Source: Entophlyctis helioformis (lineage: Eukaryota > Chytridiomycota > Chytridiomycetes > Chytridiales > Chytriomycetaceae). From it: 64,000 nucleotides of DNA. The first letter of the stretch is position 1. Every line of letters starts with the position of its first letter. Shown here in pieces: positions 6,570 to 15,068 of the stretch. The notes under the pieces were generated by a model. That model worked only from the letters and a program-made list of their open reading frames with translations. It was not told the origin of the DNA and ran no database searches. A program made the translations under genes and the position numbers. The stretch spans positions 17,853-81,852 of the forward strand of contig JAHLKH010000127.1 in assembly GCA_025526915.1 (NCBI GenBank), read 5' to 3'.

Positions 6570-8192
<1,623 letters not shown>

Positions 8193-9148
8193 ATGAGTCG
8201 TCGGAAACGCTCATCGCCAGCGAGTCGGTGACGTCCATTTCAACATCGTCGTCGTCGTCGTCGTCTGCATCGGCATCTGCCCACCAGCTCGCAGCCGTGC
8301 GTGCCCAGCGTGTGCTCACCCGCAAGTTTGTCGCCGAGCTCGTCGGCACGTACCTGCTTGTCCTGTTTGGCGTCGGCTCGGTGTTCTCGGCCGTGCTCAC
8401 GGGTGCACTGCAGGGTCTGTGGCAGGCCGCCGTCGTGTGGGGCATCGGCCTCGCCATGGCCATCTACCTCACGGCGTCCGTCTCTGGCGCACACCTCAAC
8501 CCGGCCGTGTCGCTGGCCATGGCCGTGTACGGCGAGTTCACGGGCTTTGGCTGGAGCGAGCTGCCCGCATACGTGGCCGGCCAGATGGCTGGCGCGATCC
8601 TTGGCGGTGCAACGCTGCTGGGCATCTGGGGGCCGTTCATTGCGCACTTTGAGACGCAGCACGGCATCGAGCGCAGTGTGCAGCCCGACTGTGTGCGCTC
8701 GGCCATGATCTTTGGCGAGTACTTCCCCAACCCGGGCGTCTTCCCGCCGCTGTCTGCGGGCGGCTCGCTGGCATCGCCGCTGCGTGCGCTGTGCGTCGAG
8801 GCCTTTGGCACGTTCGTCCTCGCCTTTGTGATCTTTGCGCTCACGGACCGCACCAACAAGACCGTGCCTGCTGCCGCCGTGCCGGCCGCCATTGGCGCCA
8901 CGGTCGCGGCCCTCATTGCCTGCTTCGCCCCCATCTCGCAGGCCGGCTGGAACCCTGCGCGCGACCTCGGCCCGCGCATCGTGGCGGCGCTGTCGGGTTG
9001 GGGCAGCTGTGCGATCCCCGGCCCCCACGGCGGCTTCTGGGTGTACATTGTCGGCCCGTGCCTCGGCGCGGTTGCTGCCGGCGCCTTTTACTTTGGCGTT
9101 GTGCGTCCTCAGCCCGGCGACGTCTCCAAGGACGGCAAGGCCGAGTAG
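8193..9148 (+). CDS. Aquaglyceroporin (MIP family channel)
   Basis: About 310 residues; a six-helix channel with both pore motifs, NPA in GAHLNPAVS and NPARD in WNPARDLGPR. The Asp after the second NPA is the usual mark of glycerol-conducting members. N-terminus is Ser/Thr-rich and C-terminus is short and charged. The open frame runs back to 8054 without any ATG. The only nearby ATG (8193) is in another frame and would join the channel frame if one base were missing between 8195 and 8228, the same kind of loss seen elsewhere here. Start therefore uncertain. AATAAA at 9275. No introns. Confidence 0.9.
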
Positions 9149-9399: not shown

Positions 9400-12300
9400 T
9401 TACTTCTTGGCCAAGGCTTCGATATGCTCGCCAACGCTTTCAGACAGCGTTCCAAGGCGGTTCTGTCGCAGGTTAAAGTTCTTGAGCAACCGGAGTTGCG
9501 TGATGGATTCGGGCAGCGTCTCGAGCTCGTTCTGGCTCAGGATCCTGTCCAGACAAGTTGAGTATCGTGCGCCAATGTGCTGATCGGCGGAGACGGCTCT
9601 TACAGCTCGGTGAGTGCGGTGAGGTTGCCGATCGATTCTGGCAGTGCCTTGAGCTTGTTGTGGCGCAGGTTGCTGTGTTGCAGGCATGGATGAGATTGAG
9701 CATCGGGAGTGATGGCTGCGTTGCAGATTGGACTCACAGCTGCGTCAGATGCGTCAGGTTGCAGATGCTGTCTGGCAGATGCGTGAGCTGGTTGTCGCTG
9801 AGTCCCCTGTATCCATGCAGTCAGTATGAGCGCGTCCGTCATCATGCCATGCCACTTTGACGAACAGGAAAGTCAGCTTGGCGAGCTGGCCGATCGATGC
9901 GGGAAGCGACTCGAGTTTGTTTTCCTTGGTGTACCTGGCGCGTCACAGCATTCAGCATTCACGCTGCTCGAGCAGAGCACAGGCACGATCAGCAGAATGC
10001 GTACAATTCTTCGAGGCCCCTCATCCCGCCAATCGACTGCGGCAGCTCCTCGAGCATGTTTTGCGAGACATTGAGTTCCTGCACATGCACAAGCCTGCCA
10101 ATTGATTCAGGCAGTCTCGTGATCTTGTTATCGCGGATGTTGCTGTCATCCACATGTCAGCCATCGCGAACAATCAACAAGCAGCAAGAGGTGCACGCAC
10201 AGCTTGAACATGTTGGTTAGGTCGCCAATGTTATCAGGCAGCTTGGTCAAGTGGTTCTCATCAAGGTACCTGGCAACGCAAGCATGTCAACAACTGCATC
10301 TCACAACACAGACTGCCACAAAATAAGCAACAAACAGCACGGTACTTACAGGCGTGTCAGGTTGGAGAGGTTGCAGATCGAGTCGGGCACAGAGGTGAGC
10401 TGGCATTCACGGAACCCACTGGCAAGTACCCGTGTGAGTTGGCGAATCCAGCTGCAATGCACATGGCCAGAACCCACAGTCGCTTCAACGACGTCAGACT
10501 GCCAATGCTCTCGGGCAGTGTGCCGAGATTGTTGGTGCGCAAGGCCCTGTCCAGCGAATGAGCCTTTCTTGCCGAGTGTTTTGCATAGGTCCATCAACCA
10601 TCTATCCACCCGTTCATCCATCAAAGCCACTCACAAGACCTCGAGACTCTTGAGGTCGCCAAACCGCTCTGGAAGGCACCTGAGCTTGTTTGTGCCGCCA
10701 ACACTGCACAGAGACTAGAGTAAGCTCACTGCAGGCAAACACGGATCCACGTCCAGAATGCAGACGTACAAGACACGAAGAGATGGGAGCCGGCAGAACG
10801 AGTCTGGAAGCGTCTCGAGATTGTTGTTTCGCAGCTCGCTGTTGCCGCCGAGATGCCAGCCAGTGTCAGTTCCCAAGGCAGCGCGTTTGGCAATGCAGAG
10901 CAGAGGCCGACACTGACAGGTAGGATAGGCTGGCCAAGTCTCCAAAATTGTCTGGCAAGACCTCGATCGCATTGTTCTGCATCGTCCTGGAGGGTCAACT
11001 TAGGGTTAGATATCCTTCGCTCCGATCCGGCCGCAATTGCCGCATCATGGATCTGGCATACATATTGTCCAGATTTACTAGCTTGCAGAGCGAGTCTGGT
11101 AGTCTGGTGATCTTGTTCGACGCCAGTCCGCTGTTCCATTGCGTCAGCATGCAGAACGCCTGAGCATGAGCATGCCAATGCGACCCACAGTTCAACCAGG
11201 TTGGTCAAGTTGCCAATCTGGTCGGGCAGAGCCTCGATCTGGTTCTTGTCCGCTTTCCTGCACAGTACGGTTAGCAAAGGCATCGAGAATGGGAATCAGC
11301 ACGAAGGGCAGGCTCACAGAATGGACAGGCTGTAAAGCTGGCAGATGGAGTCGGGCAGCGACGTGAGCTTGTTGTCGCCCGCATACCTGCAGGTATGGAT
11401 TGAGCGTGAGTGCCGTGTGTTGATTGACACCGCACGCATCTGCTGTTCAAACACCCACAGCTCCTGCAGGCAGCTCAGATGGCCCATCTCTGGAATGCAG
11501 GTCAAGTTGTTCCGGCTCAACTCTCTGGAATGGCAGTCAGCGGCACGACAAGTGCATCCCTGCAAAACATTGTCGCCGTTATGCACACACTTACAGCGTG
11601 TTGAGAAGGTACAGGCCGTTGAGTGACGGCACGCTATCCAGCTTGCATCCACTCAGGTTCAAATGCGCCAAACGGCTGAGCGTCCAGATGCTCTCGGGCA
11701 GCTGGTGCGGCAGCTTGTTATCACGCAGGTCGAGCGTCTTGAGGTTGCGCAGATTGCCGATATTGGCGACATTCTCGAGACTCTTCCTGTCCCAGCGCGT
11801 GGCTGCCGAGCTGGAAACCACGATGGCAGTCAGTGCAACTGTAAACGGCGTCTGGGCGAGATCCGCGTGTACTCACAAGACTTCCAGCTTGGTCAGTTTC
11901 TCGAGGTTTGGAATATGCGTGATGTTGTTGGCAGCGATGTTGCTAGCGACCCACACGTTGTGAGCGGGATGTCGTGCATGTGACAGGCATGCATTCATAC
12001 GTCACGTAACACTTACAGAATCCGCAGATTGACACATTCAGAGAGAGTGGAAGATACCGTCTCAAACTGGTTCGAGTTGATGTCTCTGCAGACAACCTCG
12101 GTTGTGTCAGAACGCGTGCAGCCATGCACAGTGCCTCTTGAGCAGCTATCGCGACTCACATTTCGTGCAGCTCGGTCAACATGGACAAGAGGTGCGGCAC
12201 AGATCCAACCAGGTTGTTCTGCCCAAGGCGACTGCATCGCATGTGTCAGAAAATGAGACGGCTGGCCACACGCCTGCGATCCCAGCTCACAGCGAGGTCA

Positions 12301-15068
12301 GCTTGGTCAGCTTGCACAGCTCCATGGGGATCATGCCCTCAAAGTCGTTTTGATCGAGCCACAGCTCTCTGAGCTGCGTGAGCAGGCCGATATCCTTGGG
12401 GATGGCTCCGGACAGACCGCATCCCGTCAACCGCCTGTCGAACAATGCCCGCCCTAGCATCAGCATCCCGCCAAGGTCTCGGCAAACCAAGACGCCTCGA
12501 CCTACAGCGCAACCAAGTTGTACGTGTCGTCCCACTCAATGCGCCACTTGGGGATGTTGCGCTTGGCGAGCCGGTCGTACATGTGCAGCATCTCGCCAGT
12601 GGGCAGATGCTCGGCATTGGCAGTGATCTCGCTGTCCTTGGCCCAATCGGGGAAGATGCTGCACAGCACCTCCAGATCCGACGCGCCGTCCGTGAGCTTG
12701 GTGCCTCCGTCTTGGCGTAATGCCATGCGGCGAGTCAGCTTACAATCCATGCAATGAGCAACGGCCGGAATCGGCATACCGGCGTTGATGGGACTGACGG
12801 CCGATGCCAGGACATTGACAATCTCGTCAAAGTGAGGGCGGTACTTGAAGAACCCGAGACACTTGACCAGGCATTGCCACAGCTCATTGCTCACGTCTTC
12901 CGGCCGCTCGGCCGTCTCAATGTCGAGGTCTTGGATGGTCGAGCGCGTCAGGACAGCCATGGCAATGACGGCAAACGCATAAATGTCGAGCGACGGCTTG
13001 GGCGAGTAGTCCTTGACTGCAGCCTCTGGCGCCATGCACTTGGTCGCCTGCTGCGGCCCAGCCAGCGCACGGATCGACTGTATGCCGACACCAATCTTGA
13101 CCTTGTTGCCCTTGGCATCTGTGTGTCGTTGATCCATGAGGAGGTGGGTGGAGCAGGTGAGCGGCCAGCCAAGCATCCTCTCCCACTGCCAATCCTAGCG
13201 AAACTGACCCAGCAGGATACGCCGCATGGTGATGCTGCCGTGGAGAACAGGAGCTCCAGGTGCGTACACATGCAGGTACTTGATGCCACGTGCAACGCGA
13301 GATATAATGCGCAGACGGTCTTGGGTACTCAGATCGGGATACTTGGCCAGGTAAGTCTCGAGGTTGTACTCCATGAACGGCATGGCAATAAACGGCCGAT
13401 GGGTGCTGCCCTTGGGGGTCTTGAGACAGATGCCCGTGATGGGCAGCAGGTTGGCGTGGCTGAGCTGGAACCACTTGCGGGTCTCGGTCAAGAAGTCCTC
13501 GCGCACCTTCTCATCGAGCTCCTTCTTGAACTCCTTGATAACGTAGTCGCTGCCGTCCATCTTTGCTTTGTAGACCAGGAATACGCCCTTGGAGTCTTCG
13601 GGTGCAGTCGAGACGAGAAAGTCGTCATGGCGGATGTGGAGAGTGCGAGGACGGATGAGTCTGTAGGTGGATCTGTCAGCGGGGCTGTTGAACGCAAGCA
13701 TCTCAAAGATCCAGCGTACCCGAGGATCTTGTCTGTCTTGGTGTCGATCAGGTTGAGTTTCTTGGCCGTGTGCATGAGCATGACAGCAGAGTCCACTTGC
13801 ATGGCAAGCGAGATCAGCTGGTGGGTGGACAGAGTCAGTCAGCCAAGTGCACAGATCCATGAGAGCAAAGCGATCGTCACGCACCTCCTTGATCTTGGCA
13901 AGGCGTGCCCTGAACTCAGCAATCTGGGCTTCGACCTCTGCTTTCTTGGATCCCATGACAAGCATAAGCCAGTTTCTCCCGGGTCTCGTGGTCAAGATAA
14001 CCGTGTCTTGCACATCCTCGAGCAGATCCACCAGCTCAGCGCACTTGCCGCGCACATCGGCAGAGAACCACTGGTTGGCCATCGGTGCAAGGATCGTCTT
14101 GAGCTCCTTGAGGTCGGCCAGGAAGCTCTTTAGACCACCAATGCTGTCCATGCCGTCCTTGATGTTGCTGAGGATGCTGTCGATGATGCCAATGGCGACG
14201 GCAATGCCTGGGATCGGCACAAACTGCGACGCGGCCTTGGCAGCAGAGATGACGGTCGAGGCGACTTCGAGACCGTTGGTGGCGAGGAAGCGCGTGACGG
14301 CCTTGACGCTGCTGCCGTCGGTCTTCTTGGGAGCCTTGCGGATCATGTCGACAAACTCGACGACAGTGCTGCTGAGCGTGGCGATGCTGGAGATGGTGGC
14401 CGTGTCAAAGTCGGATGCATCCTGGCCGAGGCTGGCGAGGAACGAGTTGCAGGCCGTGATGGTCTGGCCTTGGTTCTCAAGGGTCGAGCGCAGAACACCC
14501 TTGAGCTCCTCAAAGGCGGCATCGGCTGTGGCCGACTTTGCTGCAACGGCCGCTTGCAGCTGTGCATCGTCGAGCACAGAGGCGGCAGGCGGGGTGGCTG
14601 ACCGGCTCGTCTGGTAGATGAGCGCCTGCATGTCCAGGCAGCGGCCGACAACGTCGTCAAAGGCCGTCTTGATGGACTCGGCCGCTGGATCGAGACTTTG
14701 GATGTGGTCTGCCGCCCTGTGCAGCATCGTCACAACATCCGCCTGCAGCTGTTGCACAGGGCAGCTGGATGGGTCAGTCGACAGCGGCAGGCAGCAGGCA
14801 GTGCGCAGCAGCAGCAGATGATGGGCAGCAGCCTCACTTTGGCAGCGTCGATTGGCGAGATGACGGGGGCGGCCCTTGGCGACGTTGTGCGGTCGTTGTC
14901 GCTGTCGTTGTCGCTGTCGTTGTCGTCAGCAGCCGCATCAGCCACTCCCCCGACGCCGCAGATGAGGCGGTCGTACAGCTTGCTCAGGCTGTCGTGGTGC
15001 ACAGGCGTGGAGCGAGACGGCGGCTTGGCGGCGCCAGACTTGGACGTCGGCCTCTTGTCGACACCCAT
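9400..15068 (-). CDS. Helical-bundle / pseudokinase / leucine-rich-repeat protein
   Basis: 25 exons, all in phase, about 1,337 residues: 14838-15068, 13885-14748, 13720-13817, 13209-13672 (or 13660), 12506-13118, 12291-12434, 12160-12231, 12017-12085, 11877-11942, 11595-11810, 11459-11524, then 69-bp exons at 11318, 11189, 11062, 10918, 10770, 10635, 10478, 10350, 10201, a 138-bp exon at 10005, 69-bp exons at 9866, 9738, 9604, and 9400-9544. Residues 78-365 are helical and contain a VPIPGIAVAIGIIDSIL segment like the MLKL / Cbl N-terminal bundle of plant and fungal kinases. Residues 410-660 are a kinase fold with the VAIK-type Lys (YVIKEFK) and APE, but HRD reads HGS, the catalytic-loop Asn is Arg, and DFG reads GVG: a pseudokinase. 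An LRR cap and 25 LRRs follow. No TM segment, so probably cytosolic. Confidence 0.85.

Follow-up and report, generated by a model that had tools for sequence, protein, structure and literature searches.

Can a fungus carry a helical bundle, a dead kinase and a long sensor of leucine-rich repeats (LRRs) in a single protein chain, and what could such a protein be doing? The question is raised by a minus-strand gene of the chytrid Entophlyctis helioformis, at positions 9400..15068 (ATG at 15068, stop at 9400) of a 64,000-nucleotide stretch of DNA, here called the window, which comprises bases 17853-81852 of contig C127; the genome searched has 482 contigs and 29.57 Mb. The predicted protein consists, in this order, of a low-confidence tail, a helical domain (helical domain 1), a second helical segment that begins with FVPIPGIAVAIGIIDSIL, a pseudokinase, a cap and 25 LRRs, a combination that was not expected in fungi. 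We consider the best explanation, with a probability of roughly 0.45, to be that it is a soluble intracellular LRR receptor of an expanded chytrid family, in which an MLKL-like bundle would be freed by a pseudokinase switch.

The exon model was made by dynamic programming, with the short LRR exons mended by hand, and at first had 25 exons and 1333 amino acids (aa). The deposited protein P0001 (BC831DRAFT_42442, 778 aa) shows an extra 69-nt intron at 12779-12711, and the stretch is also absent from the aligned relatives, therefore the gene is given here as 26 exons and 1310 aa, replacing the 1337 residues of an earlier note on this DNA. Outside this one intron, P0001 is identical to the modelled protein. 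Its exon with the second LRR reads on into an intron (12291 region) and then to a stop, which means that 23 of the 25 LRRs are missing from the public model. The deposited relatives comprise 21 records, of which E. helioformis contributes 12 and Polyrhizophydium stewartii 9, some of the 9 being alternative models; the relatives are filed as hypothetical proteins, one of them named IRAK1. Those of 1046-1438 aa bear long LRR arrays, and the kinase and the LRRs therefore belong to one chain. The order of helical part, pseudokinase and LRRs is thus supported by both the exon model and the relatives, and a chance chain of exons was ruled out by the uniform phase-2 introns, the 69-nt exons and the deposited relatives. 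All parts of the gene located below lie on the minus strand.

The cap (DLEVLCSIFPDWAKDSEIT...) is encoded by exon 5b (12506..12669), at the end of which the first LRR starts, and 20 LRR exons (7-26 of 26) follow at 9403..12434. The introns preceding them are GT-AG, 58-88 nt long and in phase 2 in all 20 cases, and 13 of the 20 exons are exactly 69 nt, which chance would hardly produce. The motif search found 23 LRR hits, or 21 when two overlapping pairs were merged, and reading the remaining positions by eye added three clear repeats and one degenerate, in agreement with the cap and 25 LRRs counted earlier.

The kinase region (residues about 404-660, exons 4-5a, 12784..13644) matches Pfam PK_Tyr_Ser-Thr with E 6.4e-17. 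In the window copy the beta-3 (VAIK-type) lysine is retained as VIK, with Lys440 at 13534..13536, and so is APE (578-580, 13024..13032); HRD has become HGS (538-540, 13234..13242), by which the catalytic Asp is lost, and DFG has become GVG (558-560, 13084..13092). Alignment confirmed this motif pattern, already described in the earlier note, and showed it to be a property of the family. Catalytic motifs are lost in all 16 aligned members and the beta-3 Lys is retained in all 16, the HRD Asp is absent in the 15 rows that have letters there, DFG is absent in 16 of 16 rows, and the P-E of APE is present in 15 of 16, the remaining row being gapped. A TKL-type fold with lost catalytic motifs makes the domain a TKL pseudokinase, and like that of MLKL it has the beta-3 Lys and neither the HRD Asp nor DFG. 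Sequence comparison does not place the kinase nearest to MLKL.

Predicted helices continue to residue 400 and the kinase match begins at about 403, which places helices directly before the pseudokinase, whatever family they belong to, and further parts flank this unit on both sides. Residues 250-397, from the end of exon 2 and exon 3 (13720..14232), are the best-conserved part of the chain, with a mean pairwise identity of 62.3% as compared to 53.6% for the cap, 47.2% for the pseudokinase and 38.0% for helical domain 1 (means over the 66 pairs that 12 proteins give, or over 55 in the case of helical domain 1; P0009, P0012, P0015 and P0016 were left out as shortened or duplicate models). Helical domain 1 (residues 78-215, 14335..14748) is a region separate from the bundle and poorly conserved, with the lowest identity among these four parts. 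At the start of the bundle lies the 19-residue window with the highest hydrophobicity in the chain (253-271, mean 1.92), and read by eye the bundle consists of three helices, a short Trp-containing turn (NWLMLVMG) and another helix, an order which we take to resemble human MLKL. The Pfam family MLKL_N (PF22215) was found in five of nine members at E up to 10. Listed singly at E up to 1, four of seven members matched it, P0010 with 4.2e-05, P0011 with 9.6e-05, P0013 with 0.00099 and P0014 with 0.0068, and P0018 matched with 5.6e-05. Four of these, P0010, P0011, P0013 and P0018, are paralogues within P. stewartii and match the same stretch of the profile (45/46-126). For the consensus of our bundle profile, too, MLKL_N was the best Pfam match, but at only 0.0039.

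The case for an MLKL-type bundle has its limits. The strong MLKL_N matches all come from one species, P. stewartii, every score is under the curated cut-off of 27 bits, and MLKL_N does not match the window's copy at all. None of four reversed sequences matched MLKL_N, yet they reached other families down to E 0.0078, hence the 0.0068 of P0014 means little. Because a single species supplies the strong matches and reversed sequences attain such values, our confidence in the best explanation is reduced and that in two of its rivals slightly raised. The fold predictions are of too low confidence to establish an MLKL bundle. With the predicted model of P0001 (mean predicted local distance difference test, pLDDT, 55), Foldseek puts full-length mouse MLKL, 4btf, at rank 4 of 1963, with an alignment of 444 columns (root-mean-square deviation 20.4) where the other matches listed have 266-287, and the alignment would appear to extend through the helical part of the model as well as the pseudokinase. 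The model of residues 75-403 alone (mean pLDDT 52) gave generic bundles, with a best Foldseek E of 0.17 and, by VIA-align, no MLKL among the best 50 matches listed.

Other searches gave little for the helical part. HeLo, HELL, Goodbye and SesA were not among the 24 Pfam families listed for nine members at E up to 10, a search in which the HMMER filters drop most weak matches. PF22215 found no match in the genome, nor in the control genomes. Exon 2 had no match in a PDB sequence search at E up to 10, and the N-terminal profile had 23 (alpha-synuclein, clusterin, a huntingtin fusion), the best at E 0.96. Pfam hits such as DUF1611_N, Bacillus_HBL and cwf21, among others, were set aside, since each occurred in one member only. 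Taken together, residues 250-397 are probably MLKL-like. The single MLKL bundle proposed earlier for residues 78-365 is reduced to a module at about 250-397, which agrees with MLKL_N below threshold.

On the preferred reading, the LRR array would sense a ligand, and ligand binding would shift the pseudokinase, which may act as a non-catalytic switch; the loss of its motifs is observed, and the role of switch is modelled on MLKL. The shift would free residues 250-397, and the hydrophobic first helix could then engage a membrane and harm, or signal to, the cell. The sequences themselves show the order of the parts, the motif loss, the size of the family, the conservation of the bundle and the differing LRR types; sensing and cell death by the window protein are inferred. 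It is also possible, with less confidence on our part, that the protein is a signalling adaptor, with LRRs that bind partners and a pseudokinase-bundle unit that serves TKL kinases (IRAK/ILK-like) as scaffold or allosteric activator, and that neither membrane damage nor death is involved. An adaptor is harder to reconcile with a bundle more conserved than the kinase, and with MLKL_N as the best Pfam match in the four of seven members and in P0018, though under the cut-off.

Two other classes of receptor were considered and rejected. The 25 LRRs are C-terminal, as in NLRs, but no NOD domain was found: residues 1-778 have no Pfam match to NACHT or NB-ARC at E up to 10, and the relatives' precomputed accessions do not include NB-ARC PF00931; the NLR-like character suggested earlier has to be given up. 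In an LRR receptor-like kinase a transmembrane helix would separate the LRRs from the kinase; here, by hydropathy, the top window, 253-271, lies N-terminal to both the kinase and the LRRs. To that extent a cytosolic protein, as the earlier note had it, agrees with our results.

The LRR arrays are of different types among close paralogues. The window gene (15 LP-like and 8 IP-like motifs), P0006, P0008 and P0014 have mainly LP-type arrays, and P0002-P0005 mainly GxIP-type ones; those of P. stewartii are mixed. The window LRRs are closest to those of P0006 and P0008 (50.2 and 48.1% identity), as compared to 38.7-40.3% for P0002-P0005, whereas residues 250-660 are closest to P0002-P0005 (64.0-65.7% versus 53.6-55.8%). 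A swap of LRR arrays between copies would explain this discordance between the sequences of the two halves, and convergence of the repeat type may be an alternative cause.

In the E. helioformis genome, the bundle region was matched on at least 20 contigs and the kinase exon on at least 16. Of the 19 loci compared, 16 are no more than 12 kb away from a contig end, where 9.8 would be expected in the same contigs (Kolmogorov-Smirnov p 0.0013), a limit of 12 kb that was picked after seeing the data, with C111 left out, and assembly breaks at repeats may contribute. The copy on C29 lies about 10 kb from a telomeric repeat, no telomeric repeat was seen at the readable ends of C450, C382 and C242, and the window gene itself is not close to a contig end. 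The differences in LRR type and the position of the copies would be as in recognition families, by analogy. They also fit polymorphic recognition loci, and the same machinery could have another trigger, the family being one of self/non-self (allorecognition) receptors and not of antimicrobial defence. We think this unlikely, and hyphal fusion is not known in this group. In its favour, the available parts of reviews place the fungal cell-death receptors described so far mostly in allorecognition (PMC10197012, PMC12881547).

A much less probable account is that old LRR-kinases turned into pseudokinases and were amplified with no defined role, the copies now forming a repeat family that decays or is neutral. 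In its favour, 4 of 20 loci (C286, C318, C27 and C111) had no kinase match in the genome search, and several deposited models are shortened. Against it speak splice sites, long open exons and a motif pattern that are retained in two species at 39-60% identity to the window protein, as well as a bundle that is strongly conserved. P. stewartii is the only second species found, and all 21 records come from these two. Each of the three protein searches scored only the roughly 8000 candidates sharing most words, thus the species range is a lower bound and absence from other chytrids is not established. The search for the same order in other chytrids has in this way yielded the P. stewartii relatives.

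Two records have an unusual composition. P0020 (287 aa, on C286) has the bundle region and no kinase match, and is either a stand-alone bundle or a gene fragment. P0017 (P. stewartii HK105_003092) contains two bundle-like segments in tandem, its N-terminus bears PF01094 and PF00003, and it is probably a gene-model fusion.

The genome also has six loci with a related kinase, here called type A as compared to type B, the family of the window gene: C153:58390-59328, C223:4645-5577, C36:121346-122275, C2:314665-315755, C64:112458-113547 and C56:10277-11289. Each has an upstream helical exon, a TKL kinase, an FPxW-type cap and downstream LRR motifs on the kinase strand, which in the stretches read number 14 in C153, 20 in C223, 19 in C36, 2 in C2, 2 in C64 and 14 in C56; the opposite strands of the six stretches have 1 in total. 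C153, C223 and C36 retain HGDLKANN and DFG, the near-identical copies C2 and C64 have HGNLNARN and DFA, and C56 has HGDLRAKN and GFG. Downstream of the kinase in C36 and C223, LRR exon-plus-intron units recur every 130-132 bases (19 and 20 units), suggesting a recent tandem duplication.

The type B kinase profile recovers all six type A loci (1.6e-41 to 4.3e-19), and a common origin of the two kinases is clear from their sequences. For the bundles it is only suggested. When the bundle profile was run against 1318 open reading frames (ORFs), type A helical exons took ranks 1-4 (two of them near-identical) at E 0.21-0.98, followed by C223 and a window ORF in an order that varies with the E-value used, with C56 unlisted. 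A comparison of the type B N-terminus with the type A bundles by hhalign was collinear at a probability of 1.7%. With the profile of helical domain 1, no signal beyond noise came from the type A loci. Against MLKL_N, the helical exons of C56 (0.0076) and C153 (0.04) gave matches that are noise-like by the reversed controls, and those of C2, C223 and C36 gave none, while a PDB search with the type A bundle profile returned one designed protein, at 0.14. It is conceivable, but rather unlikely, that the two types form an LRR-based chytrid immune system made from necroptosis parts, in which the type B bundle would be the executioner and type A would phosphorylate or recruit it, a RIPK3-MLKL-like pair where both have their own sensors.

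An aquaporin ORF adjoins the window gene (8054-9145, plus strand; MIP, E 1.2e-42). For the other nine large window ORFs the Pfam scan gave nothing at E 0.001, and neither tRNAs nor Rfam families turned up in the window. No partner gene was seen nearby, spliced genes having been modelled at this locus only.

Among known systems, vertebrate MLKL likewise has a helical part followed by a pseudokinase with the beta-3 Lys kept and the catalytic motifs lost. The window protein differs in the bundle match under the cut-off and in a kinase that is not closest to MLKL. MLKL has no LRRs and its bundle is N-terminal; in the window protein 250 residues precede the bundle, a difference from both MLKL and HeLo. 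The comparisons with published systems that follow keep to the accessible parts of the cited papers. In plant MLKL and in Pm13 of wild wheat, an MLKL_NTD is likewise fused to a kinase, AtMLKL being the pseudokinase version and Pm13 the active-looking one (PMC10951266), a pair that the dead type B and active-looking type A here parallel; the accessible text has no LRR array in the same chain. In the fungal HeLo, HELL, Goodbye and basidiomycete MLKL-like NLRs, an MLKL-type bundle is also the effector of a one-chain receptor, and Goodbye-likes share the helical extension before the bundle, but these have NACHT or NB-ARC, with ANK, TPR or WD40 where LRRs would stand, instead of a pseudokinase and LRRs (PMC9815663). 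For Goodbye-like domains, the same authors want experiments before cell death is claimed. According to a review, some proteins that have a kinase or pseudokinase domain also carry HELL domains (PMC12881547). The MLKL homologues of Glomeromycotina are also proteins of early-diverging fungi with a repeat domain, which there is Sel1 instead of LRRs and is reported exclusively from that group (PMC8778642). Batrachochytrium dendrobatidis has four genes that, like ours, join LRRs and a kinase in one chytrid protein with no membrane span; compared by description only, the accessible text describes neither a bundle nor a pseudokinase state (PMC2939053). The same survey, of 101 species in 2010, found LRR receptors almost entirely absent from fungi. 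No description of a bundle-pseudokinase-LRR family was found in the literature searched, which had bioRxiv and most subscription journals outside its coverage. The earlier note knew of no described fungal protein in this order; what is present is a whole family, with about 20 loci, and databases already contain related proteins.

LRR-based intracellular sensing would extend to fungi if they have a multi-copy family that joins a long LRR array to an MLKL-like bundle. Such a family would also give a naturally fused sensor, switch and effector of the necroptosis type, and make the detection of non-self by early-diverging fungi directly testable.

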